Part shown: positions 18,646-58,242 of the stretch, piece by piece
How positions within the stretch are numbered: the first letter of the stretch is position 1
Layout of the letters: each line of letters begins with the position of its first letter
Assembly: GCA_964016985.1 (NCBI GenBank)
Contig: OZ024830.1
Coordinates: forward strand, 75,361,763-75,425,762
Direction: 5' to 3'
Source: Anodontia alba
Lineage: Eukaryota; Mollusca; Bivalvia; Lucinida; Lucinidae
DNA: 64,000 nucleotides
Notes under the pieces: generated by a model
Databases searched by the model: none
What the model saw: the letters and a program-made list of their open reading frames with translations, nothing else
What the model was told of the DNA's origin: nothing
Made by a program: the position numbers and the translations under genes

Positions 18646-18646
<1 letters not shown>

Positions 18647-19295: not shown

Positions 19296-19384
19296 TCACT
19301 TAGTGGTATATCATTGAAATGCACTTAAAAATTATAGAAATCGAATAATACACTGGAAATACATTTTAAGAAAGAAATACAAAT

Positions 19385-21541
19385 ATGACGGCAAAATTAG
19401 TTACAAAAGATTCATGCAGTGAAAGTCTTGCCAGACTGCCGTTGGAAGTAAATGTTATAGTATTGGGAAACGATCGTCAAAACAATGACCTGTCCTTAGT
19501 AAAAGATCTGCCGGCAGGCATCAACACAGAGAAGGATACCATAACTGCCTCCAAAACAGCTCTTAGTAATGATTATTTGCTGCATGATTCAGAGAATGTC
19601 GACATAAAGGTAGATTCACTTATAATGAGCGTTGAAGATAATGAATCGTGTGAAACAAAAGACAATAGTACACAGGATCAGTCCGAAGAAACACGAATGG
19701 TATTGCATGAACAGAAAACGCCTGAAGAGCATGAGATACATACAGAAAAACGAACACCGAACAATACACATACACAAACAAAAAGAAAAACAAAGAAAAA
19801 ACGAAAACACCGAACACTAAACAAATTTCTGAATGACTTATACAGTAAAAAACTGGACCTTAATATTAAGTTTAGCAGTCAGGAAATCATCGACATTTAT
19901 AATGCAGTGAAGAAGATGATAAACAATTTAGCTGAAACTATTGGTGAGATAGACGCACGCCTTAGCATAGGTGAAGTAATTTCAGTGGGAAGTGCAAGGG
20001 AAGGAACACAAATCATCAGACCATGTGAATATGACTTTATCTTAACTTTAGATGTTCTCTCTAAACCAGGGACTGTATCTATAACACAAGCGAATTCAGA
20101 TGATGCCAACAGAGAATATATGCGTGTCAAAGTCGAAGACAGTGAGATCAGAACTTTATTGCATGATATTATTGACGATTATTATATCAGAGGATCTCGT
20201 TCATTACCGTCGTTTCGAAAGGGACTCAGACAGTTACTTTCATCAGCGATTCACCAGGCTGTGCTTTTGCGTTCGGAGTCTTCAGTCATTGAGTCGACTG
20301 GTACTCTTACATTCAAACACACAAAGGTTGAAACACATGGCCCTGCTTGGACAACGAGACTGATATGGGAAAGCTATGCAGCCAAAGCAAATATGGACAT
20401 ATCTGTTGATCTTGTTCCTGCTTTGAAGCTAAATGATATTCTAAACCATGTATTGCCATCGGTTCAAAACATATGTTCTTCTTACATTGCCAGTGTCCAA
20501 AATTTTGGCTCGGCGTTACTGATGCCTCGCGAAGGTCAACGTTTTAGAGTAACATTCACTGAGGTGGAATTATTGTTAACGTCACATATGTCTGACCATC
20601 ACAGAAAATGTTACAAACTTTTAAAATATCTCGTAAATGGAGAACCATATCCAGTTGAAAGAAGTGAAACAGGGTTTTTGAAGTATTTACCTTATTTACG
20701 CGATTCTCGTACTGGCGTCCATTCATATTCCATGAAAATAGCAGTCTGGGACCATCATTATAAACATGGATGTTTAGAGGAAAATGATTTGGGTTTGTGC
20801 ATATTGAACATAGGAAGACATTTATCGATTTCTTCTTTCAAAGGCGGTATAAGACAGCCTTTCAATAAAAGTGTAGTGATGAATCCGAATGTGTTCGGTT
20901 ATCCGACAGTTTCTGATGGAAATCAGAAATCCTATATGAATCAAATAAGATTAAGACAGTTGAAAAGCAGTCTTGAAAAGGTAGGCAAAATGCCTACCAA
21001 AGAGTACAATTATGAAACATGTCGGCGAGCTTTTAAATTTACAAACCGCATTACATTGCCATTTTTGTACTTGTACATAGCGTTTACTGTGATTTGTGCT
21101 GTTTCTATGGTTTTACTAAACGGTAAAAGCATCCTGTTTACTTCTCTAGGTTTACTTTTTGGTACTTTTAGCTTGATATACATGTTTTCTGTTCCAAGCT
21201 TTTTTAGGCGACATTTATTAACTCTTGAATCACGCAGACTAACGAAGTTTCGTATCGATACATTGATTTTATTTGTTTATTTTTCAGTATGTTTAATTGG
21301 ATGGAGTTTTTTCTTTCTTTCAGTAGCAGGAAACAATTATGATGACGGAAGAGAAATAAATATCTTTCTTTTTTTATCATATGCCCTTGGCATAGTTTTT
21401 ATGTGCGTTAATCTCCCTACCTTCTCAAAATATTTCAGACTGCACCTGAGTTTTCTAGCTTCATGTGTCATAAGCATACTATTTTTGCAGCTGGGAAGTA
21501 TAAGTATTTATATTTTAACAAAGTTTGAAATAATTGTCTGA
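19385..21541 (+). CDS. cGAS-like (Mab-21 domain) nucleotidyltransferase with C-terminal membrane anchor, 718 aa
   Basis: Single-exon frame from ATG 19385 to TGA 21539-21541. Residues 1-130 are acidic and probably disordered. Residues 133-143 form a Lys/Arg-rich linker (KRKTKKKRKHR). Residues ~160-545 are a Mab-21/cGAS-like domain with the GS motif at 202-203, first acids E215 and D217 in CEYDF, third acid D342 in ISVDLVPAL, and the helical C-lobe words RKCYKLLKYLV and HSYSMKIAVWD. Residues ~554-711 hold about five hydrophobic segments (554-578, 582-606, 622-648, 656-680, 686-711) with a basic loop FRRHLLTLESRR. Family members with these acids make cyclic dinucleotides or similar signals on sensing a ligand, mostly double-stranded RNA or DNA. 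Catalysis is predicted; ligand and product are unknown. The cGAS zinc thumb is not seen. It is paralogous to the frames at 42009 and 50073. Vertebrate cGAS has no such anchor. Confidence 0.88.
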   Translation: MTAKLVTKDSCSESLARLPLEVNVIVLGNDRQNNDLSLVKDLPAGINTEKDTITASKTALSNDYLLHDSENVDIKVDSLIMSVEDNESCETKDNSTQDQSEETRMVLHEQKTPEEHEIHTEKRTPNNTHTQTKRKTKKKRKHRTLNKFLNDLYSKKLDLNIKFSSQEIIDIYNAVKKMINNLAETIGEIDARLSIGEVISVGSAREGTQIIRPCEYDFILTLDVLSKPGTVSITQANSDDANREYMRVKVEDSEIRTLLHDIIDDYYIRGSRSLPSFRKGLRQLLSSAIHQAVLLRSESSVIESTGTLTFKHTKVETHGPAWTTRLIWESYAAKANMDISVDLVPALKLNDILNHVLPSVQNICSSYIASVQNFGSALLMPREGQRFRVTFTEVELLLTSHMSDHHRKCYKLLKYLVNGEPYPVERSETGFLKYLPYLRDSRTGVHSYSMKIAVWDHHYKHGCLEENDLGLCILNIGRHLSISSFKGGIRQPFNKSVVMNPNVFGYPTVSDGNQKSYMNQIRLRQLKSSLEKVGKMPTKEYNYETCRRAFKFTNRITLPFLYLYIAFTVICAVSMVLLNGKSILFTSLGLLFGTFSLIYMFSVPSFFRRHLLTLESRRLTKFRIDTLILFVYFSVCLIGWSFFFLSVAGNNYDDGREINIFLFLSYALGIVFMCVNLPTFSKYFRLHLSFLASCVISILFLQLGSISIYILTKFEIIV

Positions 21542-35904: not shown

Positions 35905-37715
35905 CCGGCCATGTTTTTTTACAAATCTTGACAACTTGAACTGAATCTTAAAAGAGGGTCACCAAAGGAACATTTCTGCCAAGTTATATTGAAATTGGTC
36001 CAGTGGTTTAAAAGTTTTATATAGCTATAAAGCCCTAGGCCCTAACGGCCATGTTTTTTGACGAATCATGACAGCTTGAACCAACTTGGTAGAGGGTCAC
36101 CAAAGAAACATTCCGGCCAAGTTATATTGAAATCTGTTCAGTGGTTTCTGACAAGAAGAATTTAAAAGTTATCTATTTAGATATACAGGGAAAACAAGAA
36201 GATTTTTTTTTCAAGTTTTCTGTATAGATATATAGGGAAAATAAGCCCCACCCCCTTGCAGCCATATTTTTTGACGAATCATGATGGCTTGAACAACCTT
36301 GGAAGAGGGTGACCAAAGACACATTCCTTCCAAGTTATATTGAAATCGGTCCATTGGTTTCTGCCAAGAAGATTTTTAATGTTTTCTATATAGATACATA
36401 TATAGGGAAAATAAGCCCTGCCCCCTGGCGGCCATGTTTTTTGACAAATCCAAACGGCTTGAACAATCTTGGTAGAGGATCACCAAAAGAACATTTCTGC
36501 AAAATTATATGGAAATCGGTCCAGTGGTTTGGGACAAGATGATTTTTACATTTTTCTATATATAGGGAAAATAAGCCCTGCCCCCTGGCGGCCATGTTTT
36601 TTGACAAATCCAAATGACTCGAACAATCTTGGTAGAGGATCACTAAAGGAACATTTCTACAAAATTATATGGAAATCGGTCCAGTGGTTCTGACAAGAAG
36701 ATTTTTAAAGTTGTCTATATAGATATATAGGGAAAATAAGCCCCACCCCCTGGCAGCCATGTTTTTTGACGAATCCAAATGGCTTGAACAATCTTGGTAG
36801 AGGATCACCAAAGGAACATTTTTGCAAAATTATATTGAAGTCGGTCCAGTGGTTTCGGACAAGAAAAGTTTTAAAGTTTTCTATATAGATATATAGGGAA
36901 AATAAGCCCTGCCCTCTGGTGGCCATGTTTTTTGACAAATCCAAATGGCTTGTACAATCTTGGTAGAGGATCACCAAAGGAACATTTCTGCAAAATTATA
37001 TGGAAATCGGTCCAGTGGTTTCTGACAAGAAGATTTTTAAAGATTTCTATATAGATATATAGGGAAATTAAGCCCCGCCCCCTGGCGGCCATGTTTTTTG
37101 ACGAATCCAAAAGGCTTGAACAATCTTGGTAGAGGATCACCAAAGGAACATTTTTGCAAAATTATATTGAAATCGGTCCAGTGGTTTCGGACAAGAAGAT
37201 TTTTAAAATTTTCTATATAGATATATAGGGAAAATAAGCCCCGCCCCCAGAGCGGCCATGTTTTTTCACGAATCCAAATGGCCTGAACAATCTTGGTAGA
37301 AGATCACCAAAGGAACATTTCTGCAAAATTACATTGAAATCGGTCCAGTGGTTTCTAACAAGAAGATTTTTAAAGTTTTCTATATAGATACATAGGGAAA
37401 ATAAGCCCCGCCCCCCTGGCGGCCATGTTTTTTGACAAATCCAAATGGCTTGAACAATTTTGGTAGAGGATCACCAAAGGAACATTTCTGCAAAATTACA
37501 TTGAAATCGGTCCAGTGGTTTCTGACAAGAAGATTTTTAAAGTTTTCTATATAGATACATAGGGAAAATAAGCCCCGCCCCCTGGCGGCCATGTTTTTTG
37601 ACGAATCCGAATGGCTTGAACAATCTTGGTAGAGGATCACCAAAGGAACATTTCTGCAAAATTATATTGAAATCGGTCCAGTGGTTTCTGACAAGAAGAT
37701 TTTTTAAGTTTTTAG
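35905..37715. repeat. ~167-bp satellite array, about 11 units
   Basis: Each unit reads GGCGGCCATGTTTTTTGAC, GAATCCAAATGGCTTGAACA, TTGGTAGAGGATCACCAAAG, ATTGAAATCGGTCCAGTGG, AAGAAGATTTTTAAAG and TATATAGGGAAAATAAGCCC. The GCCATGTTTTTT word falls at about 35908, 36047, 36262 (variant), 36432, 36593, 36757, 36922, 37090, 37257, 37424 and 37589. Units become more alike toward the right. Minus-strand frames across it repeat with the array and are not credible genes. Confidence 0.88.
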
Positions 37716-38046: not shown

Positions 38047-38833
38047 ATGTCAAATCCTAATTTCTCGGAAAATAAAAAAAAAAACATTTTAAAATGTCGT
38101 CTACTGAAAAAAGTACCCACTATGCGGAGCGAAAAAAGTCAAATTCTGTTTTCTGGGAAAAAAATTAAGAAAAATATTTCAAAATGTCGTCTGCTGAAAA
38201 AGTACCCAGCATACAGAGCGCCAATATTAAATCATGTTTTCTGGAAAATTTGTGTTGAGGTTTTTACGGCCCAGTCAATCCAATGGGGTCATGTCGAGCG
38301 CGGTCAGTTTACCTAACCACACGTTTACTGGGCAGGCTTTGTCCTCTAAGCGGTTAACCAGTATTGTGCACATTCTTTCGCCAGAAACTGACAACTGCCC
38401 TTCTTGAATCAGCGGAAGGGAGAGAATGACCGTAGAAAATATTACATGATCAATCTCCACGAAAGAATGTTGCCGACCTCGGCGGGGGTCGAACCCGCGA
38501 CCTCCTGGTCTCCAGTCGGACGCGCATGCAACTGAGCCACCGAGGCTGGAAAAATAAGAAAGTATATTTCAAAATGTCGTCTGCTGAAAAAATACCCAGC
38601 ATTCAGAGCGTCAATGTCAAATCCTGTTTTTTTTTTTTTTTTTGAAAAAATAAGAAAAATATTTCAAAATGTCGTCTACTGAAAACAAAACAAAACAAAA
38701 CAAAAAACAAAAAAAAAAAAAAAAATACCCAGCATGTAGGCCGTCAATGCAAATCCTGTTTTCTGGGGAAAATAAGAAAATAATATTTCAAAATGTCGTC
38801 TGCTGAAAAAGTACCCACCAAGCAGCGCGTTAA
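38047..38833. repeat. ~85-bp satellite, 5 units, split by a SINE
   Basis: Unit words: CAAATCCTGTTTTCTGG, AATATTTCAAAATGTCGTCT, GCTGAAAAAGTACCCA. Units start near 38048, 38138, 38227, 38613 and 38749. The third is cut by the SINE at 38250-38549; the fourth has (T)n and (A)n expansions. Confidence 0.8.
38250..38549 (-). mobile_element. tRNA-derived SINE, type 1, nested in the 85-bp satellite
   Basis: Minus-strand copy with intact B box (complement of GGGGGTCGAACCCGCGACC) and A box (complement of CAACTGAGCCACCGAGGC). CTGGAAAA on both sides is the likely target duplication. Confidence 0.88.
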
Positions 38834-39788: not shown

Positions 39789-40652
39789 CATTAAATATGT
39801 GAATTTCTATCAAAAACCTGGATCAAGTAATCTGATTGGCTGGAAATTAGAAGTCGCATAGGGAAATAAATCCTTCATTATCACGCAATTTTCCGATACT
39901 AACTTACGGATTTACCCGAACAGATACCTGTACAAATTCGACTCAGTGATACATAGAGTTAAATAGGAAAATAAAATAAAAACAGATAATACATGTATTT
40001 CTGATTTAACGATAATTTTTTATGTTATTTTCAAAATCTACTTTTATTGCACTTTCACAAGTTATGAAAATTTTCAAAATAACTTCATATCTTAGTTCTT
40101 CCCTATGCGTTTGAAATTCAGACTATTTGTGCCTATATATTACCATTATATTTTGTCAAAAATGATCAAAACGCTAATTTTAGCCTCTATTTTAAAATGA
40201 TTGCCTTTTCAAAAATGTTTTATAAGTTATCACCACAAAGAGATTTTTCTATAGTTTGTACTGGTATATAACACTGTAGAATTAGTATTTTTCTGCATTC
40301 TTTCATGTCGCTGTAAACTTGTGAAATTAAGCTTTCCCGAACTATCGTAAAGATGTTTGAAATAGTCAAAGTCCAATAATAGCGACCTAGGGGAAATAAC
40401 TGTCTTCAGTCAACTGCCGCTTCTCATAGGTAACTTTCCAAGTAACGCCCCTTAGCGGATTGAAGCATATTTTTCGAGATGGCGAGGCATCTTAATTTAT
40501 TCAGCATGAGAAGGAGTAAGATTTTCACTAGACATTAAACTTTACAGTTAAACGACCCTAAAACATGTTGGGCCCATCATTTTACCTGCTTTATTTGAAA
40601 CTATATTATTATGACATTTTTTGTTTTTTAATATTTTTTTTTTAATTTCAAA
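39789..40652. other. gene-free AT-rich stretch left of the tandem duplication
   Basis: GATCAAGTAATCTGATTGGCTG (39822) and GGCATCTTAATTTATTCAGCA (40488) also occur next to each other at 34310-34380, so this is old duplicated sequence. No gene. Confidence 0.45.
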
Positions 40653-40682
40653 CAAACAAAAATGTTGTCGGATGTTTTTGTA

Positions 40683-41263
40683 AATTAATGAATAAAGATA
40701 CATCAGGAACTGATCGAATCAGAACCCACTGCCTGTCGCAAACATCAAAGGGAAAGACGGACAAAAATATTTTAACAAACAATAAAATCACAGGCGACAA
40801 GCAGAGTTAGCAGCTCTTTTTCAAACAGGTGGTAACTCAACTAGTTACCTTTACTGAACTAAATAATTTTGACATACATAGGTCTTAAAATAAAAACATA
40901 TAAGAATTGAACAGCAGCGACCATAAAACAAATGAAACCGCAACGAAAGTACCACCTTGAGTCGGCCAGTAATAATCACTGGGGAAGCGGGGGCGCGGGG
41001 GTGGGGGGGGGTGGAGGGGGGGGGGGGTAAACGGGTTTTGCGGGGCCCCAGTCTTCACCCTCATGTTCCGTCGCGGCTTACACAATTTTACTTGTTTTTT
41101 GGCTTGTATAGAGGTCTCCTAGCTCGTCATTGTGTCATCAAGGATAACAGTCAAATTCAAAGAAAAGGCTGTGATGAAGCAAGAATGAGGACTCGACAGT
41201 TACGTGTTGAGACATCCAGAGATCCCTGGGGTGTCAGCAACACCACTGAACACTGGAGCAAAA
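40683..41263. repeat. ~600-bp dispersed repeat, copy 3
   Basis: Same blocks as 32837-33465 up to CACTGGAGCAAAAG; a poly-G tract is at 40981-41028. Confidence 0.7.
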
Positions 41264-41723
41264 GCTTCTGTCGATATAACGATAAGTACCAGTCATGGCC
41301 TTTGGCGAAGACCAAAAAAAACGAAAACGCAAAAAAGGCTAAGAGAACAGCATATTGTAGAGTCATATATATGAACCTTTCAGAACATTTATTTTTATGT
41401 AGTAAAAAGTTAGATAATGTAATAGAAAAGTCCATTACGAGGTTGTCGTTGTATTTGTGAGTGATACATCAGCTTCATTTATTATTTACTTACTTATATC
41501 ACACTCGCAAAGTATCGATATAATAATTTTTGTGTGCAGCCTGCTAACACGTGCAAAGTTCATTTATATTTAAATTGTTTCTTTCTGTCTCTCGCTGTCT
41601 CTTCTTTCTTTTCCCCTTGTGTTATTTATTTGTTTAATATTTATCACGCCCTTTTGGTAAATTCGATTACATTTTCCTTGCAGTACGCTAATTTTATAAC
41701 GAAGTTTTATTTCTATTTAGATT

Positions 41724-41724
41724 T

Positions 41725-41767
<43 letters not shown>

Positions 41768-41768
41768 G
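41724..41768 (+). repeat. (CTTT)n microsatellite, unit 1
   Basis: About 11 units; the unit 2 counterpart (49147-49176) is shorter. Confidence 0.9.
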
Positions 41769-42033
41769 TTCCTCTCTCTCTCTTACTCTCTTTTTTCTTT
41801 ATCTATATTTAATTACATTCTATTTACGCTGCATATTATTTATTTATTTATGTATAATTTATTTATTTATTTTTATTAATGAATATGGAACAGCAGTAAC
41901 CAGCTCCCGGGAGAAAGCTAATAGCCATGCTTTCTGTGATTATGTTTTCTGTGATGCGTCTGACTGGTCTTCTTCTTGGAGTCGTTGGCTTCACGTTAAA
42001 AAATTATTGTGCTTTTGCAAATCACACTTTATA

Positions 42034-43877
42034 TACATGGTATACTTACAGAGAAAAATAGCACCAAACAAGACGTACACACACAAACAAAGAAAAAGAA
42101 AAAGAGAAAAAGAAAAGACCGAACACTAAACATATTTCTAAATGACCTAAACAGTAAAAAACTGGATCTCAATATTAAGTTTAGCAATCAGGAAATCACC
42201 GACATTTATAATGCTGTGAAAAAGATGGTAAACAATTTAACAGAAACTATTGGTGAGATAGACCCACGACTTGGTATTGGCGAAATCATTTCAGTGGGAA
42301 GTGCAAGAGAAAGAACCCAAATCATCAGACCGTGTGAATATGACTTTATCTTAACTTTAGATGTTCTCTCCAAACCAGTGACTGTGTCCATAACACCAGC
42401 AAACCAAAATGATGCCAGCAGAGAATATATGCGTGTCAAACTTGAAGACAGTGAGATCACAACATTATTGCATGATATTACTGACTATAATTATATCAGA
42501 GGTTCTCGTTCTTTACCATTGTTTCGGAAGGGACTCAGACAGTTACTTTTATCAGGGATTCACCAGGCAGTGCTTTTGCGTTCGGAGTCTTCAGTCACTG
42601 AATCGACTGGTACTTTAACATTCAAGCATACCAAGGTTGAAATGCATGGCCCTGCTTTTACGACCAGGCTGGTATGGGAAAGTTATGAAGACAGATCAAC
42701 TATGGACATATCTGTTGATCTTGTTCCTGCTTTGAAGCTGTATGGTATTCTAAATCATGTATTGCCATCAGTAGACAACATATATGCTCCTTACATTACA
42801 AGTGCTAAAAATGTGGGCTCGGTGTTGCTTATGCCTCGCGAAGGTCAACGTTTTAAGGTTACGTTCACTGAGGCGGAATTATTGCTAACATCGCGTATGT
42901 CTGGACACCATAGAAAATGCTACAAAATTTTAAAATACCTCGTAAATGGAGAACCATTTCCAACTGAAACAAGAGAAACAGGGCTTTTGAAGTATTTACG
43001 TTATTTGCGTGATTCTCGTACCGGCATTCATTCATATTCCATAAAAATAACAGTCTGGGATCATCATTACAAACAAAAATGTTTAGAGAAAAAGGACTTG
43101 GGTTCTTGCATATGTGACATTGTCAGAAGATTACATTCTTCAATTTACAACAGAGGTATAACACATCCGTTCAATAAAAGTAGAGTAATTGATCCGAGAT
43201 ATCTACCCAGTCCTGATGGAAAGCGGAAAAGCGGTGTGACTGACAGAAGATTAAGAAAATTGTACCAGAGTCTTGAAATTGTCAGCAAATTACACATTCA
43301 AGAATACAACTATGAAACATGTCACCGCGCTATTAAAAGTCCTAATTCTATTCTAGATCAATATGCATCATTTTTTTATGCCTTCGTCGTAGTGGTAACT
43401 GGGATAATATTAACCTTTGCTATAAGTTTTGGTGTGGGTCAACTCACCAAATTTGATATTATAGGTTTAATTTTGAATATTTTCAGTGTGTTCTACGTGT
43501 TTACTATTCCCAGATATTTCAGACGACATTTAGTAATTCTTGAATCACGGAGAATTAAGAAAACTTATATCGATATATTGATTGTGCTTGTGTACAGTTT
43601 TATGTGTATACCTGACTGGATATTATATTTTCTTTCAACAGAAAAAATGCATACTCGCATAATATCATCTTTATTAGTGTCTCTCTTCGGAACTTGTTTT
43701 TTGAGTTTTAAGCTCCCTGCCTTCTATGAATGTATTGATCAGCATATGAATCTTGTGTTGGTCATTCTATTTCTACTTTCATTTACTCTTGGTCTAATTT
43801 ATTATAGTCTTTCAATCTCCATGGCGTCTACCAATATTTTAAATAGTAACGATTTGTTTCGTTTACCGTTCAACTAA
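42034..43877 (+). pseudogene. 5'-truncated cGAS-like (Mab-21) gene copy
   Basis: From HGILTEK onward the protein is identical to residues 127-739 of the gene at 50073, but a 1,007-bp deletion removed the leader, the start codon and the first 126 codons. The frame is open upstream to a GTG at 42009, which is not a credible start. The first in-frame ATG is at 42225 and would give 550 aa, starting at the spine helix (MVNNLTETIGE). It would retain the GS motif, both metal-binding acids in CEYDF, the third acid in ISVDLVPAL and all five membrane segments. The stop is at 43875-43877. No point mutation breaks the frame, so it may be a very recent pseudogene or an expressed short isoform lacking the acidic tail and Lys-rich linker. 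Confidence 0.8.
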
Positions 43878-44210
43878 ATCTTCCATTTACTCTTGTCCTA
43901 GCCGGAGCAGTCTATCGCCATAGCTTATGAATTGGACTGTCTGACTGACTGACTGTTCAGATTTTTTAAAGCTACCAGGCAACTGAGTCACCTAGAGGCA
44001 GCGCCAGATAAATCTGCATTAGTTTTACTGGACTACTGGGTTGGCTTGAAACGGTGCCTATTTATAATTCATACCTAGTCACCTCGCCCAGACACGGACC
44101 GTGTGCATGTCCAGCCACGCTGCAGGCGTGTCCAGAACTCGTTCGTAAATAGTAGTCCAGCCTGCAGAATTTAGACTATCGGCCGAAAAGTTTTGAGTTT
44201 TCAATCTCGT

Positions 44211-44254
44211 ACCTAATGCGTGTCAATTCCGACTGCATAATGCATTAGGTACTC
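44211..44254. repeat. hairpin with GTACCTAATGC arms
   Basis: GTACCTAATGC and GCATTAGGTAC flank a short loop; repeated in unit 2 near 52626-52669. Confidence 0.6.
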
Positions 44255-44383
44255 AGCTCGACTCATGAGTAGATTACTCTCGCTAGCCACGTGTCGGTCG
44301 GACGGGTGTCCTCAGCCGGGAGCGGAGAGGGTGTCCTCACTCTAAGTAGGTCAGCGCCGAAGGATGTCTTCTTAGCGGACGAT

Positions 44384-45058
44384 CTACTTGTTGTTTGCCA
44401 GCAGGTAGAAACGTATCTGTCCTCCAGAGTCGTTGCAGGCTTGCTCAAGATAGTCGTACCATGAGATGATGTTCTCCTGTTCGTCGCCTGTCTCCAGTTC
44501 CTTCTCTATGCGTTCATAGATGTGCTTAACGTAGTACTTGTTGGTGGGTTCCGTTACCATGATCCACTTCTTGTGTCTGGCGTTGAGCTGGTACATGAAG
44601 AAGGCTGGTGGATCTATGTTGATCGTCTCATCTGGGCGTTAGAGGCGCTGTCCTTTGACGATCATGACGTCGGCACCCATCATCTTGACGTTGGTTACTC
44701 TCTGGAGGTCATACTTCTCATGTAGTGGGTATGTGAAGGCGTAGCTGATGTAGCTGGTATGGCACTTCTCCTTGCTGGCCGGCGCTGTTGGTGACTACGT
44801 CCGCGTTTCCATCTTCGGCGGGCTGTCTGGAGTAGGAGGCGGTGTTTGTGGTCGAAAGATGGTTCGTGCTGGCTCTGTGATGGCTGTCTTCTGCGTTCGG
44901 TCGTGTGTGTTTGTAAATAATATTGTGTCTGGTAGAGTCTGTGCTGGTGGTGCTGGCGTCTCCTTCTCCACACAGGGCGTTGGTCGACAAGCTGGTGTCG
45001 GTCGTAGTAGTCGTCGGTCGTTGGGCTGGAGCGGGCTAGCGAGGCCACTCTCCAGCAT
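44384..45058 (-). pseudogene. GC-rich broken coding sequence of unknown origin, unit 1 copy
   Basis: One minus-strand frame runs from ATG 45058 to the stop at 44384 with two internal stops, a TAG just after METRT (44795-44797) and a TAA at 44639-44641. The first ~85 codons are Pro/Thr-rich (RPQTPPPTPDSPPK). The rest looks like a folded domain: CHTSYISYAFTYPLHEKYDL, GADVMIVKGQRL, DPPAFFMYQLNARHKKWIMV, YVKHIYERIEKELETGDEQ, IISWYDYLEQACND and FYLLANNK. I do not recognise the family. Base composition (GC-rich, C-ending codons) contrasts with the AT-rich surroundings, which suggests capture from another source such as a virus or transposable element. This is inference. Confidence 0.5.
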
Positions 45059-45484
45059 GAGGTAAACGCCGCATCCTACTTTCTGCCCCCTTCTTGTCGA
45101 AACTTTGGTTAGTTGCTTTCCGGAACGTCACTTCTATCTTCACGTGATCTTTCCTGCACCGTCTGCTGTTCTCCATAATGGGGACGCGTCGAAACTGTAT
45201 TGTCTCAAGGCGTTAAGTACTGCAGGCAGCAAATGAGACATGATTGTTGGTTGGTTGGTTATTCAATCAAGATGTGATGAATGATGGTGATGATATGATG
45301 TTTTCTTATGAATTTTTGATCGACATAATTTCATATAGGAGCTTTTATTGAGCCGTACTTCCGGTTCTAAAATAGAACGGTAGGCCTAGGCTTCAACGGC
45401 CAGTTATTCAGCCGTATTGTTTCAAGGCAGCCGGACAGATAACGTGTTCATTCCACTGATAAATAGTGACCTTCTTTAAAAGTT

Positions 45485-45520
45485 TGGAGGAATTCTAATG
45501 TATTAGAATGGGGAAACACT
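45485..45520. repeat. short perfect palindrome
   Basis: ATTCTAATGTATTAGAAT within AT-rich sequence; also in unit 2 near 53908-53925. Confidence 0.5.
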
Positions 45521-45634
45521 CATCTGCAGTTCGCCTAATCCCAAGTGGTTACATTTCTAATTTTCTGCTCATGGTGATATTTTGTACGTACTCGTGAAAG
45601 CTACTTCATTTTTTTAAGTGATTCAGATCCAATG

Positions 45635-45639
<5 letters not shown>

Positions 45640-45669
<30 letters not shown>
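45640..45669 (+). repeat. (TC)n microsatellite, unit 1
   Basis: About 14 TC units; the unit 2 counterpart at 54054-54097 has about 21. Confidence 0.93.
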
Positions 45670-45671
<2 letters not shown>

Positions 45672-46814
45672 ATCATCTGACTATTGCTAGTTCTAGAGAC
45701 AAGAAAGACTCCATTTTAGCATTTTTATTGTAATGTGAAGGCTCTAAGGAATCTGAAAGGATGGGAACCTCCGTTGTTACCTGTCATTTGTCATTGCCAA
45801 CACTTTTTAAACGTTCTTTAAATTTAGTAACTCACATAACACATAACATTAATTATTTTCCTTATTTTTACTCCTTAAACATATCTTGTCGGTATTCGTT
45901 AGGTCCGCCTCTTTGATACGTTCTGACAAGCATCCACAATTTATATTTGGGCTTGAAATAAGAAAACTATCAAACGTTTTCATTTGAGTAATGCTAGTTC
46001 TAGTGACAGTTAAGACGCCATTTTAGCACTCGGTTGTGTTATGGTAATGTAAATTTCTCCAAGGGATCTAAAATGATAAGAATCTTCGTGATCTGACGTC
46101 GTTAGTCATTTTCAACACTTTTTTTTATCATACTTTTAAACTCTCATACACTAAGAAAAACAAGATTAAAACCAATTCTGTAACTTTTCTTCCGTGACTT
46201 TTTCCGTGACTTTTTTTTCTATGACATTCTTTCCTACATTCGGCTGCAGTGTAGGCTTTAAATTCCTCCTGCAATTATCGAGTGTACGTAAATGTAAAGG
46301 ACACTGTCTGTGTGAGATAACTCCCAACGTTAAAAAAGGCCGCGTCGACATCTATGGACGTCATGGCGATGAATTAAGGTAGCATTACACTACATACTGG
46401 AAGTGCCGGGTTTTATCACTTTTGGACCGAGGTTTCAGTTGCAGTCTAAATACCAGACATACTTCCATTGGATATATATCTCAGGTTTTATTTCAATGTG
46501 AGAAAAGGACAGTTATAAGGAAATAAAATGATGTGTGTTTTATAATTATATCTGCAAGCTCAAAGAAAGTGTTGCTGATTTTATATGGTCACCCCTCCAT
46601 TAAAAAGTCCGCTTGTTATTCGCTGCGAATCTGCAGGTAAACAATCATAGTGGACCGTAACTTGAAAAGGAGCAGGACAACACGTGGATTTTTTCTCAGA
46701 AACTTGTTGAGCTGGGGTGGCTCTATAAACAAGTAAGGTTTGAAAAGTTTTTGTGGCAGCATGTGAAAGGTTACTATTGTCGCCTATGGAAAAATATTTA
46801 GTGGTTAGCTCCCT

Positions 46815-46882
46815 TAACGTTGAAATATAAACGTCGATGCAACGTCATAACGTTGCATTGACGATGGTGCGATGTTGCTTAA
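46815..46882. mobile_element. family C MITE remnant, unit 1
   Basis: AACGTTGAAATATAAACGTC, GATGCAACGTCATAACGTTGC and GACGATGGTGCGATGTTGC form a decayed family C palindrome. The unit 2 copy is at about 55244-55311. Confidence 0.5.
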
Positions 46883-47117
46883 TGAAACGCCATTTACCCA
46901 GTACTCGGACCCATCATATATATAGTAAGAAAAACGTTTCTGGGTGCTCACAAATAATCATATTTATTATTGGCTAACCGGTTTCATGAATACATCAATA
47001 TTCAGTCCTAAAACAAACAGTAAAATGGCGTCCTGTTGTCAAGGAAGTTAACGTAACGTCGCAATGTTATTGACGTTCTTCCGGTTTACAACATGACGTT
47101 TCCTGTTGGAAAAATCT

Positions 47118-47350
47118 GGGCCCAGTTGTTCAAAACTAACGGTGTCGTTAGTTAACGTATCGTTAAAACTTTGATCATTAAATATGGCATGTACGCTAAT
47201 ATTTTTGCTGAAAAAATGTGATTTGCAAAAGCTACTCACAGTTTTTCAGCAAAAATACCTGTGAATTTGATATTGTACTTACTAGAACAATTAACATTTT
47301 GACCACTAACGAGCTTGTTAAGCTAACGATGCTTTGAACAACCGGGGCCT
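47118..47350. mobile_element. ~230-bp MITE, GGGCCCAGTTGTTCAAA ends, unit 1
   Basis: The left end GGGCCCAGTTGTTCAAAACT pairs with the right end GCTTTGAACAACCGGGGCC. Sub-terminal repeats are built on GTTAGTTAACG and CACTAACGAGC. The unit 2 copy is at 55547-55779. Confidence 0.65.
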
Positions 47351-47840
47351 GATTTGTTTTGAAGCTACATATCTTAAATCAATGTAAAGAATTAAGTTTT
47401 GGTAATAATGTTCCACTAAAGAACCACTTCTTTTCTTTCCGTTTGATTGTGCAATCAGATTTCATTCGGATAAAAGGGGAAATATAATATTTTGGGTCCC
47501 TTTCAGAGCAGTCTGCAAGGTGTCCACTGAGGGGTATTTTTCCTTAATTCAGTGTTTCTAATGAGTTGATTGTGCAATGTACGTAACTCTGTTTCTCAAA
47601 CTGGTTGTTTATCCTATATATTGTTCGTTACACCCCCCCTGCATTCTGTTACATATATGACATTATTTACGTTACATGTCATATTGTCATTGATTTTAAG
47701 GGTTATGTTCCAGTAAGTATTTACAGAGGCCATATCTAGGTTCATTGCATATATAAAAAAATCTAACAAAATAAGACATTGTCTGCAAAAAACCTCTTGT
47801 CAACTTCTATTGAATTTGATGAGAACGTTGTTGGACATTT

Positions 47841-47847
47841 AGATAGA

Positions 47848-47944
<97 letters not shown>

Positions 47945-47945
47945 C
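47841..47945 (+). repeat. (GATA)n(GACA)n(GATA)n microsatellite, unit 1
   Basis: GATA, then about 12 GACA units, then GATA. The unit 2 counterpart (56270-56370) has fewer GACA and more GATA units. Confidence 0.95.
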
Positions 47946-48099
47946 AGGCTCTCTCATCTCTGTCTGTATGTGATATCTAGTCCTATCAACATACTGGGGT
48001 TAGATAGCGAATAAAATGTATAAAAGAAGCTTAAAAGTTATGTGAGATCTCACTTTATAAGCCTCAAGACAAACAAAAATGTTGTCGGATGTTTTTGTA

Positions 48100-48690
48100 A
48101 ATTAATGAATAAAGATACATCAGGAACTGATCGAATCAGAACCCACTGCCTGTCGCAAACATCAAAGGGAAAGACGGACAAAAACATTTTATCAAACAAT
48201 AAAATCACAGGCGACAAGCAGAGTTAGCAGCTCTTTTTCAAACAGGTGGTAACTCAACTAGTTACCTTTACTGAACTAAATAATTTTGACATACATAGGT
48301 CTTAAAATAAAAACATATAAGAATTGAACAGCAGCGACCATAAAACAAATGAAACCGCAACGAAAGTACCACCTTGAGTCGGCCAGTAATAATCACTGGG
48401 GAAGCGGGGGCGCGGGGGTGGGGGGGGGGGGGGAGGGTGGGGGGGGGGGGGGTAAACGGGTTTTGCGGGGCCCCAGTCTTCACCCTCATGTTCCGTCGCG
48501 GCTTACACAATTTTACTTGTTTTTTGGCTTGTATAGAGGTCTCCTAGCTCGTCATTGTGTCATCAAGGATAACAGTCAAATTCAAAGAAAAGGCTGTGAT
48601 GAAGCAAGAATGAGGACTCGACAGTTACGTGTTGAGACATCCAGAGATCCCTGGGGTGTCAGCAACACCACTGAACACTGGAGCAAAAGC
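48100..48690. repeat. ~600-bp dispersed repeat, copy 4
   Basis: Unit 2 counterpart of 40683-41263, with a longer poly-G tract (48415-48452). Confidence 0.7.
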
Positions 48691-49329
48691 TTCTGTCGAT
48701 ATAACGATAAGTACCAGTCATGGCCTTTGGCGAAGACCAAAAAAACGAAAACGCAAAAAAGGCTAAGAGAACAGCATATTGTAGAGTCATATATATGAAC
48801 CTTTCAGAACATTTATTTTTATGTAGTAAAAAGTTAGATAATGTAATAGAAAAGTCCATGACGAGGTTGTCGTTGTATTTGTGAGTGATACATCAGCTTC
48901 ATTTATTATTTACTTACTTATATCACACTCGCAAAGTATCGATATAATAATTTTTGTGTGCAGCCTGCTAACACGTGCAAAGTTCATTTATATTTAAATT
49001 GTTTCTTTCTGTCTCTCGCTGTCTCTTCTTTCTTTTCCCCTTGTGTTATTTATTTGTTAAATATTTATCACGCCCTTTTGGTAAATTCGATTACATTTTC
49101 CTTGCAGTACGCTAATTTTATAACGAAGTTTTATTTCTATTTAGATTTTCTTTCTTTCTTTCTTTCTTTCTTTCTGTTCCTCTCTCTCTCTTACTCTCTT
49201 TTTTCTGTATCTATATTTAATTACATTCTATTTACGCTGCATATTATTTATTTATTTATGTATAATTTATTTATTTATTTTTATTAATGCATATGGAACA
49301 GCAGTAACCAGCTCCCGGGAGAAAGCTAA

Positions 49330-50072
49330 TAGCCATGCTTTCTGTGATTATGTTTTCTGTGATGCGTCTGACTGGTCTTCTTCTTGGAGTCGTTGGCTTC
49401 ACGTTAAAAAATTATTGTGCTTTTGCAAATCACACTTTATATAGAGAAAAGTGAGTATACATTATCTGCGTTATTTTTGCTCAGTACACAGATTGTGGAC
49501 ACTCGTTAGAACCGCATCAAAGAGGCGCTACTAAGAAAGACTCAGAATCTATTTGTGAAGCAGAAATAAAAAGTATCGAAAATTGTCATCCGAATTTTCT
49601 CTTGTGAAGCTATGAAAAATAAACATGGGAGTGTTATCGCACTGGATATATAGTGATCGTTGATTGTGGGACTTATGGCAGTTTCCTTATCTTTGAACGG
49701 TACCCGATTCAGTTCATTTTGTATTTTTACGTTTTTCAGGACAGCTCTGCCTCAACGTGGACGTGGACACCTGGTCAAAATGTTCATTCAGCCTGCATCA
49801 CAGCAATAAAAAGGTTTGGCAATGACTTACCATTCATGTAGCCACTAATATTGCAATAAAAAAAGGCTTGGCAATAACTTACCATTCATGAAGCAACTAA
49901 TATTGCAATAAAAAGGTTTGGAAATGACTTACCATTCATGTACCACTAATATTGCAATAAAAAAGGTTTGGCAATGTTTTATCACACTTAGCGCTATATC
50001 ATTGAAATGCACTTAAGAAGTACAAAAATCGAATGATAAACTGGAAATGCATTTTAAGAAAGAAACACAAAT
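49330..50072 (+). promoter_or_regulatory. upstream region and 5' leader of the 739-aa cGLR-like gene
   Basis: Homologous to 18650-19384. Contains a decayed family B MITE (49470-49560), a putative 3' splice site TTTTTCAG|GACAGC at 49731-49744, and the leader minisatellite. Almost all of it from 49444 onward is missing from unit 1. The transcription start cannot be located. Confidence 0.5.
49805..49978 (+). repeat. ~50-bp leader minisatellite with uORFs
   Basis: Three and a half units of AAGGTTTGGCAATGACTTAC...TAGCCACTAATATTGCAAT. Unit 1 has an intact 8-codon uORF (49822-49848, MTYHSCSH). Unit 2 has lost the ATG (ATA). Unit 3 (ATG 49924) has a 1-base deletion that extends its uORF into the leader. 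Each unit also carries AATAAA. Confidence 0.7.
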
Positions 50073-52292
50073 ATGGCGACAAAATTAGTTGCAAAATATT
50101 CATCTGATGAAAGTCTTGGCAGATTGCCAATTGAAGTAAATGTTATAGTATTAGGAAGCGATCGTCAAAACAGCGTCGTGTCCGAAATTCAAGATGTACC
50201 AACAGAAGCGAATAACATATTAGAAATAGACAGTGCAGGCATCAGCACAGAAAAGGAGACAGTAAAAGCCACTAAACCCTGTCTCGGAAATGACCGTTTG
50301 CTGAATGATTTAGGAAATGTAGGCATAAATGAAGATTCACTTATAATAAGTATTGAAAATAATGCCTCATGTGAAACAAAAGACAATAGTGCAGAGAACC
50401 AGTGTGAAGGAAAAAAGACCTTATTGCCAGAACAGACAATGCCTGAAAAACATGGTATACTTACAGAGAAAAATAGCACCAAACAAGACGTACACACACA
50501 AACAAAGAAAAAGAAAAAGAGAAAAAGAAAAGACCGAACACTAAACATATTTCTAAATGACCTAAACAGTAAAAAACTGGATCTCAATATTAAGTTTAGC
50601 AATCAGGAAATCACCGACATTTATAATGCTGTGAAAAAGATGGTAAACAATTTAACAGAAACTATTGGTGAGATAGACCCACGACTTGGTATTGGCGAAA
50701 TCATTTCAGTGGGAAGTGCAAGAGAAAGAACCCAAATCATCAGACCGTGTGAATATGACTTTATCTTAACTTTAGATGTTCTCTCCAAACCAGTGACTGT
50801 GTCCATAACACCAGCAAACCAAAATGATGCCAGCAGAGAATATATGCGTGTCAAACTTGAAGACAGTGAGATCACAACATTATTGCATGATATTACTGAC
50901 TATAATTATATCAGAGGTTCTCGTTCTTTACCATTGTTTCGGAAGGGACTCAGACAGTTACTTTTATCAGGGATTCACCAGGCAGTGCTTTTGCGTTCGG
51001 AGTCTTCAGTCACTGAATCGACTGGTACTTTAACATTCAAGCATACCAAGGTTGAAATGCATGGCCCTGCTTTTACGACCAGGCTGGTATGGGAAAGTTA
51101 TGAAGACAGATCAACTATGGACATATCTGTTGATCTTGTTCCTGCTTTGAAGCTGTATGGTATTCTAAATCATGTATTGCCATCAGTAGACAACATATAT
51201 GCTCCTTACATTACAAGTGCTAAAAATGTGGGCTCGGTGTTGCTTATGCCTCGCGAAGGTCAACGTTTTAAGGTTACGTTCACTGAGGCGGAATTATTGC
51301 TAACATCGCGTATGTCTGGACACCATAGAAAATGCTACAAAATTTTAAAATACCTCGTAAATGGAGAACCATTTCCAACTGAAACAAGAGAAACAGGGCT
51401 TTTGAAGTATTTACGTTATTTGCGTGATTCTCGTACCGGCATTCATTCATATTCCATAAAAATAACAGTCTGGGATCATCATTACAAACAAAAATGTTTA
51501 GAGAAAAAGGACTTGGGTTCTTGCATATGTGACATTGTCAGAAGATTACATTCTTCAATTTACAACAGAGGTATAACACATCCGTTCAATAAAAGTAGAG
51601 TAATTGATCCGAGATATCTACCCAGTCCTGATGGAAAGCGGAAAAGCGGTGTGACTGACAGAAGATTAAGAAAATTGTACCAGAGTCTTGAAATTGTCAG
51701 CAAATTACACATTCAAGAATACAACTATGAAACATGTCACCGCGCTATTAAAAGTCCTAATTCTATTCTAGATCAATATGCATCATTTTTTTATGCCTTC
51801 GTCGTAGTGGTAACTGGGATAATATTAACCTTTGCTATAAGTTTTGGTGTGGGTCAACTCACCAAATTTGATATTATAGGTTTAATTTTGAATATTTTCA
51901 GTGTGTTCTACGTGTTTACTATTCCCAGATATTTCAGACGACATTTAGTAATTCTTGAATCACGGAGAATTAAGAAAACTTATATCGATATATTGATTGT
52001 GCTTGTGTACAGTTTTATGTGTATACCTGACTGGATATTATATTTTCTTTCAACAGAAAAAATGCATACTCGCATAATATCATCTTTATTAGTGTCTCTC
52101 TTCGGAACTTGTTTTTTGAGTTTTAAGCTCCCTGCCTTCTATGAATGTATTGATCAGCATATGAATCTTGTGTTGGTCATTCTATTTCTACTTTCATTTA
52201 CTCTTGGTCTAATTTATTATAGTCTTTCAATCTCCATGGCGTCTACCAATATTTTAAATAGTAACGATTTGTTTCGTTTACCGTTCAACTAA
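50073..52292 (+). CDS. cGAS-like (Mab-21 domain) nucleotidyltransferase with C-terminal membrane anchor, 739 aa
   Basis: ATG 50073 is chosen because its N terminus (MATKLVAKYS..ESLGRLPIEVNVIVLG) aligns with that of the 718-aa paralogue. Residues 1-140 are an acidic, low-order tail; 145-155 are Lys/Arg-rich (KKKKKRKRKDR). The Mab-21 domain spans ~172-557, with GS at 214-215, E227 and D229 in CEYDF, and D354 in ISVDLVPAL. These are the three acids that bind the two metal ions in cGAS-type enzymes. Five hydrophobic segments follow (about 571-593, 599-618, 637-660, 668-689, 698-721) and a short tail. Five segments would place the two ends on opposite sides; with a cytosolic catalytic domain the tail would be lumenal or extracellular. 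Position 219 is Arg where the paralogue has Gly207, next to the GS motif. Predicted role: membrane-tethered nucleic-acid sensor or signalling enzyme; ligand and product unknown. Confidence 0.88.
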   Translation: MATKLVAKYSSDESLGRLPIEVNVIVLGSDRQNSVVSEIQDVPTEANNILEIDSAGISTEKETVKATKPCLGNDRLLNDLGNVGINEDSLIISIENNASCETKDNSAENQCEGKKTLLPEQTMPEKHGILTEKNSTKQDVHTQTKKKKKRKRKDRTLNIFLNDLNSKKLDLNIKFSNQEITDIYNAVKKMVNNLTETIGEIDPRLGIGEIISVGSARERTQIIRPCEYDFILTLDVLSKPVTVSITPANQNDASREYMRVKLEDSEITTLLHDITDYNYIRGSRSLPLFRKGLRQLLLSGIHQAVLLRSESSVTESTGTLTFKHTKVEMHGPAFTTRLVWESYEDRSTMDISVDLVPALKLYGILNHVLPSVDNIYAPYITSAKNVGSVLLMPREGQRFKVTFTEAELLLTSRMSGHHRKCYKILKYLVNGEPFPTETRETGLLKYLRYLRDSRTGIHSYSIKITVWDHHYKQKCLEKKDLGSCICDIVRRLHSSIYNRGITHPFNKSRVIDPRYLPSPDGKRKSGVTDRRLRKLYQSLEIVSKLHIQEYNYETCHRAIKSPNSILDQYASFFYAFVVVVTGIILTFAISFGVGQLTKFDIIGLILNIFSVFYVFTIPRYFRRHLVILESRRIKKTYIDILIVLVYSFMCIPDWILYFLSTEKMHTRIISSLLVSLFGTCFLSFKLPAFYECIDQHMNLVLVILFLLSFTLGLIYYSLSISMASTNILNSNDLFRLPFN

Positions 52293-52798
52293 ATCTTCCA
52301 TTTACTCTTGTCCTAGCCGGAGCAGTCTATCGCCATAGCTTATGAATTTGACTGTCTGACTGACTGACTGTTCAGATTTTTTAAAGCTACCAGGCAACTG
52401 AGTCACCTAGAGGCAGCGCCAGATAAATCTGCATTAGTTTTACTGGACTACTGGGTTGGCTTGAAACGGTGCCTATTTATAATTCATACCTAGTCACCTC
52501 GCCCAGACACGGACCGTGTGCATGTCCAGCCACGCTGCAGGCGTGTCCAGAACTCGTTCGTAAATAGTAGTCCAGCCTGCAGAATTTAGACTATCGGCCG
52601 AAAAGTTTTGAGTTTTCAATCTCGTACCTAATGCGTGTCAATTCCGACTGCATAATGCATTAGGTACTCAGCTCGACTCATGAGTAGATTACTCTCGCTA
52701 GCCACGTGTCGGTCGGACGGGTGTCCTCAGCCGGGAGCGGAGAGGGTGTCCTCACTCTAAGTAGGTCAGCGCCGAAGGATGTCTTCTTAGCGGACGAT

Positions 52799-53473
52799 CT
52801 ACTTGTTGTTTGCCAGCAGGTAGAAACGTATCTGTCCTCCAGAGTCGTTGCAGGCTTGCTCAAGATAGTCGTACCATGAGATGATGTTCTCCTGTTCGTC
52901 GCCTGTTTCCAGTTCCTTCTCTATGCGTTCATAGATGTGCTTAACGTAGTACTTGTTGGTGGGTTCCGTTACCATGATCCACTTCTTGTGTCTGGCGTTG
53001 AGCTGGTACATGAAGAAGACTGGTGGATCTATGTTGATCGTCTCATCTGGGCGTTAGAGGCGCTGTCCTTTGACGATCTTGACGTCGGCACCCATCATCT
53101 TGACGTTGGTTACTCTCTGGAGGTCATACTTCTCATGTAGTTGGTATGTGAAGGCGTAGCTGATGTAGCTGGTATGGCACTTCTCCTTGCTGGCCGGCGC
53201 TGTTGGTGACTACGTCCGCGTTTCCATCTTCGGCGGGCTGTCTGGAGTAGGAGGCGGTGTTTGTGGTCGAAAGATGGTTCGTGCTGGCTCTGTGATGGCT
53301 GTCTTCTGCGTTCGGTCGTGTGTGTTTGTAAATAATATTGTGTCTGGTAGAGTCTGTGCTGGTGGTGCTGGCGTCTCCTTCTCCACACAGGGCGTTGGTC
53401 GACAAGCTGGTGTCGGTCGTAGTAGTCGTCGGTCGTTGGGCTGGAGCGGGCTAGCGAGGCCACTCTCCTGCAT
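52799..53473 (-). pseudogene. GC-rich broken coding sequence of unknown origin, unit 2 copy
   Basis: Counterpart of 44384-45058 with the same two internal stops. A few substitutions separate the two copies, for example the first residues MQESGL here against MLESGL. The disabling stops therefore predate the segmental duplication. Confidence 0.5.
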
Positions 53474-54049
53474 GAGGTAAACGCCGCATCCTACTTTCTG
53501 CCCCCTTCTTGTCGAAACTTTGGTTAGTTGCTTTCCGGAACGTCACTTCTATCTTCACGTGATCTTTCCTGCACCGTCTGCTGTTCTCCATAATGGGGAC
53601 GCGTCGAAACTGTATTGTCTCAAGGCGTTAAGTACTGCAGGCAGCAAATGAGACATGATTGTTGGTTGGTTGGTTATTCAATCAAGATGTGATGAATGAT
53701 GGTGATGATATGATGTTTTCTTATGAATTTTTGATCGACATAATTTCATATAGGAGCTTTTATTGAGCCGTACTTCCGGTTCTAAAATAGAACGGTAGGC
53801 CTAGGCTTCAACGGCCAGTTATTCAGCCGTATTGTTTCAAGGCAGCCGGACAGATAACGTGTTCATTCCACTGATAAATAGTGACCTTCTTTAAAAGTTT
53901 GGAGGAATTCTAATGTATTAGAATGGGGAAACACTCATCTGCAGTTCGCCTAATCCCAAGTGGTTACATTTCTAATTTTCTGCTCATGGTGATATTTTGT
54001 ACGTACTCGTGAAAGCTACTTCATTTTTTTAAGTGATTCAGATCCAATG

Positions 54050-54053
<4 letters not shown>

Positions 54054-54098
<45 letters not shown>
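54054..54098 (+). repeat. (TC)n microsatellite, unit 2
   Basis: About 21 TC units, longer than in unit 1. Confidence 0.93.
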
Positions 54099-54100
<2 letters not shown>

Positions 54101-55546
54101 ATCATCTGACTATTGCTAGTTCTAGAGACAAGAAAGACTCCATTTTAGCATTTTTATTGTAATGTGAAGGCTCTAAGGAATCTGAAAGGATGGGAACCTC
54201 CGTTGTTACCTGTCATTTGTCATTGCCAACACTTTTTAAACGTTCTTTAAATTTAGTAACTCACATAACACATAACATTAATTATTTTCCTTATTTTTAC
54301 TCCTTAAACATATCTTGTCGGTATTCGTTAGGTCCGCCTCTTTGATACGTTCTGACAAGCATCCACAATTTATATTTGGGCTTGAAATAAGAAAACTATC
54401 AAACGTTTTCATTTGAGTAATGCTAGTTCTAGTGACAGTTAAGACGCCATTTTAGCACTCGGTTGTGTTATGGTAATGTAAATTTCTCCAAGGGATCTAA
54501 AATGATAAGAATCTTCGTGATCTGACGTCGTTAGTCATTTTCAACACTTTTTTTTATCATACTTTTAAACTCTCATACACTAAGAAAAACAAGATTAAAA
54601 CCAATTCTGTAACTTTTCTTCCGTGACTTTTTCCGTGACTTTTTTTTCTATGACATTCTTTCCTACATTCGGCTGCAGTGTAGGCTTTAAATTCCTCCTG
54701 CAATTATCGAGTGTACGTAAATGTAAAGGACACTGTCTGTGTGAGATAACTCCCAACGTTAAAAAAGGCCGCGTCGACATCTATGGACGTCATGGCGATG
54801 AATTAAGGTAGCATTACACTACATACTGGAAGTGCCGGGTTTTATCACTTTTGGACCGAGGTTTCAGTTGCAGTCTAAATACCAGACATACTTCCATTGG
54901 ATATATATCTCAGGTTTTATTTCAATGTGAGAAAAGGACAGTTATAAGGAAATAAAATGATGTGTGTTTTATAATTATATCTGCAAGCTCAAAGAAAGTG
55001 TTGCTGATTTTATATGGTCACCCCTCCATTAAAAAGTCCGCTTGTTATTCGCTGCGAATCTGCAGGTAAACAATCATAGTGGACCGTAACTTGAAAAGGA
55101 GCAGGACAACACGTGGATTTTTTCTCAGAAACTTGTTGAGCTGGGGTGGCTCTATAAACAAGTAAGGTTTGAAAAGTTTTTGTGGCAGCATGTGAAAGGT
55201 TACTATTGTCGCCTATGGAAAAATATTTAGTGGTTAGCTCCCTTAACGTTGAAATATAAACGTCGATGCAACGTCATAACGTTGCATTGACGATGGTGCG
55301 ATGTTGCTTAATGAAACGCCATTTACCCAGTACTCGGACCCATCATATATATAGTAAGAAAAACGTTTCTGGGTGCTCACAAATAATCATATTTATTATT
55401 GGCTAACCGGTTTCATGAATACATCAATATTCAGTCTTAAAACAAACAGTAAAATGGCGTCCTGTTGTCAAGGAAGTTAACGTAACGTCGCAATGTTATT
55501 GACGTTCTTCCGATTTACAACATGACGTTTCCTGTTGGAAAAATCT

Positions 55547-55779
55547 GGGCCCAGTTGTTCAAAACTAACGGTGTCGTTAGTTAACGTATCGTTAAAACTT
55601 TGATCATTAAATATGGCATGTACGCTAATATTTTTGCTGAAAAAATGTGATTTGCAAAAGCTACTCACAGTTTTTCAGCAAAAATACCTGTGAATTTGAT
55701 ATTGTACTTACTAGAACAATTAACATTTTGACCACTAACGAGCTTGTTAAGCTAACGATGCTTTGAACAACCGGGGCCT
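55547..55779. mobile_element. ~230-bp MITE, GGGCCCAGTTGTTCAAA ends, unit 2
   Basis: Counterpart of 47118-47350. Confidence 0.65.
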
Positions 55780-56268
55780 GATTTGTTTTGAAGCTACATA
55801 TCTTAAATCAATGTAAAGAATTAAGTTTTGGTAATAATGTTCCACTAAAGAACCACTTCTTTTCTTTCCGTTTGATTGTGCAATCAGATTTCATTCGGAT
55901 AAAAGGGGAAATATAATATTTTGGGTCCCTTTCAGAGCAGTCTGCAAGGTGTCCACTGAGGGGTATTTTTCCTTAATTCAGTGTTTCTAATGAGTTGATT
56001 GTGCAATGTACGTAACTCTGTTTCTCAAACTGGTTGTTTATCCTATATATTCTTCGTTACACCCCCCCTGCATTCTGTTACATATATGACATTATTTACG
56101 TTACATGTCATATTGTCATTGATTTTAAGGGTTATGTTCCAGTAAGTATTTACAGAGGCCATATCTAGGTTCATTGCATATATAAAAAAATCTAACAAAA
56201 TAAGACATTGTCTGCAAAAAACCTCTTGTCAACTTCTATTGAATTTGATGAGAACGTTGTTGGACATT

Positions 56269-56371
<103 letters not shown>

Positions 56372-56665
56372 GGCTCTCTCATCTCTGTCTGTATGTGATA
56401 TCTAGTCCTATCAACATACTGGGGTTAGATAGCGAATAAAATGTATAAAAGAAGCTTAAAAGTTATGTGAGATCTCACTTTATAAGCCTCAAGACTTGTA
56501 GAATAAGCGTCAAAAAAAAAACAGATTATCTTTGGAAACAAAGAACACACTACATATTAGAAAATGGGAGTCTCGGTTTTACTGAGACTCTTCATAAGCA
56601 GTAATGAAGTTTGCAACAGTGTAAGCCTTCTGTTTTGGTTTGATCCTTTCAATATTATTTCACTT

Positions 56666-57930: not shown

Positions 57931-57947
57931 CCTTCCTTTGTTTGTTT

Positions 57948-58242
57948 ATTTGTGTTGAGGTTTTACGGCCCAGTCAACCCAATGGGGTCATGTCGAGCGC
58001 GATCAGTTTACTTAACCACACGTTTACTGGGCAGGCTTAGTCCTCTAAGCGGTTAACCAGTATTGTGCACATTCTTTCGCCAGAAATTGACAACTGCCCT
58101 TCTTGAAACAGCGGAAGGGAGAGAATGACCGTAGAAAATATTTCATGATCAGTCTCCACGACAGAATGTTGCCGACCTCGGCGGGGTTTGAACCCGCAAC
58201 CTCCAGTCGGACGGCGCATCCAACTGAGCCACCGAGGCCGCC
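57948..58242 (-). mobile_element. tRNA-derived SINE, type 1
   Basis: Minus-strand copy with tail TTTGTTTATTTGTGTTGAGG at the left and head CGGCCTCGGTGGCTCAGTTG at the right. It has lost about 12 bases before the B box (only CTCCAGTCGGACGGCG remains). Confidence 0.85.

Follow-up and report, generated by a model that had tools for sequence, protein, structure and literature searches.

The window analysed here, a stretch of 64,000 nucleotides (C10:75361763-75425762, in a genome of 1.86 Gb and 317 contigs), contains three long open reading frames of one cGAS-like family, all on the plus strand. With an intact catalytic triad, and predicted to have a cytosolic core and a C-terminal multi-pass tail, their products are probably receptor-enzymes anchored in a membrane, which upon arrival of a ligand would make a cyclic nucleotide as alarm signal. 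This receptor-enzyme reading is the best-supported one and is preferred over its main rival, a membrane scaffold.

Two full genes of 718 and 739 codons had been proposed in the original prediction, and both frames were confirmed. P0002 (718 aa; 19385..21541, + strand) is a full-length paralogue identified by frame, Pfam and own-genome search, and P0001 (739 aa; 50073..52292, + strand) is a single open frame that corresponds to the own-genome match C10:75411835-75414051. A truncated third copy, absent from that prediction, was seen at 42009..43877 (P0003, + strand; 622 aa in a mechanical frame starting with GTG). Core and tail of P0003 are identical to those of P0001, and it has no counterpart of the first ~125 codons of P0001 or of the sequence upstream of the gene. 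P0003 derives from a tandem duplication at 40648..56495 (no strand assigned), whose left (40648-48070) and right (48064-56495) units align in two blocks of 97.6 and 99.5% identity. Missing from the left unit is the equivalent of about 49444-50449, ~1 kb in all, which comprises pre-gene sequence and the first ~125 codons. The near-identical units reflect either a recent duplication or a haplotype collapsed or expanded in the assembly. When the own genome was searched with P0001, at least 26 matches were obtained. Intact frames, their lengths counted from the first ATG where read, include the three window copies and others on C10 beyond the window (C10:1786770, 703 aa; C10:49029069, 706 aa; C10:14443463, open frame of 563 aa), on C8 (two close to C8:19.33 Mb, of 552 and 550 aa; C8:67526312, 740 aa), on C12 (C12:29664373, 438 aa; C12:65121436, 451 aa) and on C3 (C3:39879797, 472 aa). 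Broken copies are found at C8:19347139 and, outside the window, at C10:75437079-75439687.

The nucleotidyltransferase (NTase) core of P0001 (residues 155-555; 50535..51737, + strand) was delimited by Pfam, structure model, profile and structure match. As anticipated for a Mab-21 relative, the AlphaFold2 model of P0001 adopts a cGAS fold, with a structural match over residues 157-557, and the family profile aligns to cGAS in two stretches, one N-terminal and one C-terminal. MAB21L1 (5eom) shares the fold (Foldseek E value 3.1e-10, TM-score by target 0.62) but ranks below cGAS, at position 46 of the best 50 matches, and is not among the 14 PDB sequences that match the family profile. The Pfam Mab-21 model PF03281 scores 27.8 bits in P0002, above the cut-off of 24.1, and 22.1 bits in P0001, below it. 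The cGAS-type core of the original prediction is supported. In precomputed annotation, PF03281 is assigned to 5 of 54 relatives, while 49 have no Mab-21 domain. The cGLR superfamily has been defined by this very domain (PMC10732462). Two features by which the excerpted text of PMC9980059 recognizes cGLRs were found, namely homology that covers the C-terminal helix bundle as well as the NTase core, and a predicted structure homologous to those of known cGLR/CD-NTase enzymes.

Both full-length genes encode the three catalytic acids that had been read from the letters of the window. Positioned by alignment, these are E227 and D229 (50751..50759, + strand) and D354 (51132..51134, + strand) in P0001, and E215 and D217 (20027..20035, + strand) and D342 (20408..20410, + strand) in P0002. 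The alignment comprised 80 sequences (two window proteins, 69 database relatives and nine own-genome members), P0003 and P0004 having been removed as duplicates. These 80 are not all independent since some own-genome members repeat database entries: cores are identical in L043 and P0005 and in L046 and P0050, and nearly identical in L044/P0006 and L052/P0055. Letters are present at all three acid columns in 77 of the 80 sequences, and 76 of the 77 are acidic at all three; the sole exception, P0043, has a K at the first column. G214, S215 and D229 are kept in 77/77 and D354 in 80/80. Residues K426, S459 and Y460, whose alignment to cGAS was seen in the profile match and which we take to be counterparts of substrate-contacting cGAS residues, are kept in 75, 74 and 74 of the 80 sequences.

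The cGLR motif given in the excerpts of PMC9980059, h[QT]GS X8-20 [DE]h[DE]h X50-90 h[DE]h, with h coded as A, V, I, L, M, F, Y, W or C, matched literally in none of the 80 family sequences. It fails because the residue preceding GS is V (72 sequences), A (4) or L (1), and because 114-153 residues, not 50-90, lie ahead of the third acid. As coded, the motif was also absent from all 40 control frames, which come from other Mab-21 places in this genome: of 45 such places, sequence was obtained for 42, and a frame of 250 aa or longer for 40. Given the literal failure in 80/80, the proteins are not filed under the strict cGLR definition, though by fold and acids they are built like cGLRs. Surveys based on Pfam or on the motif may have missed the family, as its scores lie near or under the Mab-21 cut-off and the motif fails. 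The zinc thumb of cGAS has the form H-X5-C-C-X6-C. This motif was found in 0/80 relatives and the core is only moderately basic, so that the proteins need not sense dsDNA in the way cGAS does. A different set of residues, H417, H418, C421, H469, C475 and C484 (P0001 numbering), is kept in 73-77 of the 80 relatives and may form a metal site or disulphides distinct from the cGAS zinc thumb.

The conserved residues bear on the main rival explanation, according to which the proteins are membrane scaffolds or nucleotide-binding adaptors like ITPRIP or MiD49/51, with an NTase fold that binds a partner or a nucleotide and produces no second messenger. MiD proteins are adaptors anchored at the N-terminus, where ITPRIP likewise has its membrane segment. 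Membrane-bound Mab-21 relatives provide a precedent: ITPRIP, in the excerpts of PMC6550788, is a protein of the outer nuclear membrane with a Mab-21 fold and a predicted membrane segment, and MIEF1/2 (MiD51/49) and TMEM102 appear in those of PMC7718949 as Mab-21-containing proteins linked to mitochondria or mitochondrial organisation. A crustacean Mab21 study further describes, in its excerpted text, antiviral action apart from nucleic-acid sensing (PMC12928593), and the literal failure of the published cGLR motif also fits a scaffold. However, relatives that have otherwise diverged strongly keep the full triad in 76/77 cases, and K, S and Y at the cGAS-aligned positions persist in 74-75 of 80 sequences; a scaffold would not require all of them, and we consider it unlikely.

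The hydrophobic tail comprises residues 556-739 in P0001 (51738..52289, + strand; hydropathy and model) and five segments in P0002 (21008..21538, + strand; hydropathy and alignment). Helices of the P0001 tail are predicted at 564-592, 598-627, 635-660, 664-685 and 687-729. With a hydrophobic segment defined as a 19-residue window of mean Kyte-Doolittle value of at least 1.6, P0001 and P0002 each showed five C-terminal windows and none upstream of residue 550, in agreement with the expected number of about five. No such window precedes the tail in P0001, P0002 or P0003, which speaks against an N-terminal anchor in these three. The acidic end ascribed to the tail was not borne out: over the final 20 residues P0001 and P0002 both have a net charge of 0, and 1 of 47 relatives reaches -2 or lower.

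Full tails, extending at least 120 residues past Y550, are present in 47 of the 80 sequences. At least three segments were counted in 40 of these 47 and at least four in 30, whereas seven had fewer than three. The remaining 33 sequences have shorter tails; their frames are mechanical, so that truncation, introns or genuinely short tails are alike possible. Some family members have short tails or a single segment. The fifth segment of P0019, a phenylalanine run at the extreme end, may be spurious. Among the 40 control frames, none had two or more windows in the last 200 residues (five with one, 35 with none). The C-terminal multi-segment tail is more than chance. The Wimley-White scale is not used as evidence because it does not separate tails from controls (16/40 controls with at least three segments).

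Each of the 30 tails with at least four segments has more K+R in its even than in its odd loops, a count inflated by the greater length and number of even loops, so that the bias per residue is smaller. For the four-segment tails (n=24), mean K+R was 3.75, 4.04 and 3.29 in even loops against 1.21 and 0.79 in odd loops, and mean net charge was +2.3, +2.9 and +2.5 against -0.3 and -0.2. Even loops face the cytosol if the core is cytosolic. The tail is predicted to cross the membrane four to five times, and it is this loop-charge pattern that points to a core on the cytosolic side; the AlphaFold2 model of the tail is of moderate quality (pLDDT 75.7, pTM 0.59). Searched alone, the tail gave no Pfam family above cut-off and no clear fold match, and a low-sensitivity search found it in no other architecture.

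A clade of 57 rows (support 100/99), in a tree that was built without named reference cGLRs, contains 29 of the 30 tails with at least four segments; the thirtieth, P0068, was left out of the tree. The tail-bearing clade has long branches, and the polytopic tail recurs across this deep clade. Between P0001 and P0002, identity is 79% in the 600 bases upstream, 77% in the N-terminal region, 83% in the core and 56% in the tail, and falls in the 600 bases downstream to 42%, the shuffled level (37-45%). Their homology spans 18638-21322 and 49319-52052, beginning before the coding region and ending inside the tail. In four pairs among P0001, P0002, L043 and L044, the tail has the higher dN/dS (0.52-0.75, against 0.33-0.56 for the core) and also the higher dS. 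The simplest reading of these sequence comparisons is that gene conversion or recombination has kept the 5' part alike, with a breakpoint in the tail, i.e. in the membrane domain; diversifying selection on the tail is a possible alternative.

The higher dN/dS of the tail and the truncated and broken copies nearby would also be expected if the hydrophobic region were spliced out of the mature protein or were a decaying 3' end. Set against this are the three or more in-frame segments in 40/47 full-length tails and the same loop-charge pattern in 30/30, within a clade of long branches, and we regard such loss of the tail as highly improbable. In another explanation a single chain would act as sensor, synthase and effector, the tail being a pore or a membrane-perturbing effector that responds to the ligand or product of the core. 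In bacteria, related synthases are paired with membrane effectors; the tail here is polytopic, matches no recognised domain and has diverged more rapidly than the core; and tethering needs just a single-pass anchor, which is all that some relatives have; even so, a tail of this kind is improbable. Likewise improbable is the broader idea of a whole animal clade that fuses sensor, second-messenger synthase and a fast-evolving polytopic membrane domain, such that the receptor would work at a membrane and itself be the effector, as in bacterial synthase-plus-membrane-effector defence systems but in one protein.

The N-terminal region of P0001 (residues 1-136; 50073..50480, + strand) is mostly unordered in the model, with pLDDT below 50 at residues 1-61 and 66-136. 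The basic linker KKKKKRKRK (residues 145-153; 50505..50531, + strand), to which a role in membrane placement had been ascribed, is present in P0001 but is not conserved as a family trait: a K/R run of at least five before the core occurs in P0001 and P0002 only (n=53). Among motif patterns that were picked after the sequences had been viewed, a P[VIL][DE]xN[VIL]-like motif occurs in the unordered N-terminus of 26/40 relatives, and a SUMO-interaction-like pattern, two aliphatics-x-aliphatic and then acidic residues, in 22/40 (shuffle mean 5.4, maximum 12). Two shorter relatives, L051 (from an internal Met) and P0049, begin with MGNGHS and MGSAGS, which we take to resemble the consensus of N-myristoylation signals; L051 carries a single hydrophobic segment at its C-terminal side as well. 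Membrane targeting may have preceded the polytopic tail in evolution.

Elsewhere in the window, a tRNA-Ser call (16263-16340) marks the beginning of a dispersed repeat of ~300 nt, copies of which lie at 16261-16560, 23956-24255, 33598-33900, 38249-38546 and 57944-58240; the repeat is likely a tRNA-derived SINE. A tandem array with units of about 166 nt occupies 36207-37712, and a 181-aa frame at 9964-10509 resembles, by eye, the end of a LINE reverse transcriptase.

To our knowledge cGAS has no C-terminal polytopic tail, and we know of none in MAB21L1. Compared with cGAS of mouse, human and pig (4o6a, 4k96, 8eae), the family lacks the zinc-thumb motif, has V, A or L preceding GS and a spacing of 114-153 residues to the third acid, and carries the hydrophobic tail. 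It resembles the cGLRs of PMC9980059, as far as excerpted, in the acid triad, in core plus helix bundle and in AlphaFold2 homology, but differs in missing the literal motif. The same excerpts describe large bivalve cGLR expansions and 87% of cGLRs without appended domains, name tetratricopeptide, ankyrin and multi-cGLR fusions, and use 'transmembrane' only of STING. ITPRIP, as excerpted from PMC6550788, has a single predicted segment, in contrast to the four to five C-terminal ones of the family, and unlike MIEF1/2 and TMEM102 the family keeps the acid triad. Literature searches found no C-terminal polytopic cGLR.

In the receptor-enzyme reading, the tail would hold the core at the cytosolic side of the membrane, and the core, judged by its conserved residues, would respond to ligand arrival by making a cyclic (di)nucleotide signal. 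Because five segments are predicted to cross the membrane, this alarm signal would likely be made there and not in the open cytosol. From general pathway biology, anchoring could concentrate the signal around STING or another membrane receptor; alternatively, it could limit sensing to ligands of one compartment. A STING search of this genome gave no match and is uninformative, since the controls were silent as well. The location of a cGAS-like enzyme is thought to decide what is sensed and whether self triggers it. Membrane-bound cGAS is discussed in the excerpts of PMC10855445. The family described here would add a C-terminal, multi-pass route of the Mab-21 superfamily to membranes and, as a natural clade joining an enzyme core to a polytopic domain, would make the effect of location testable by swapping or removing the tail.
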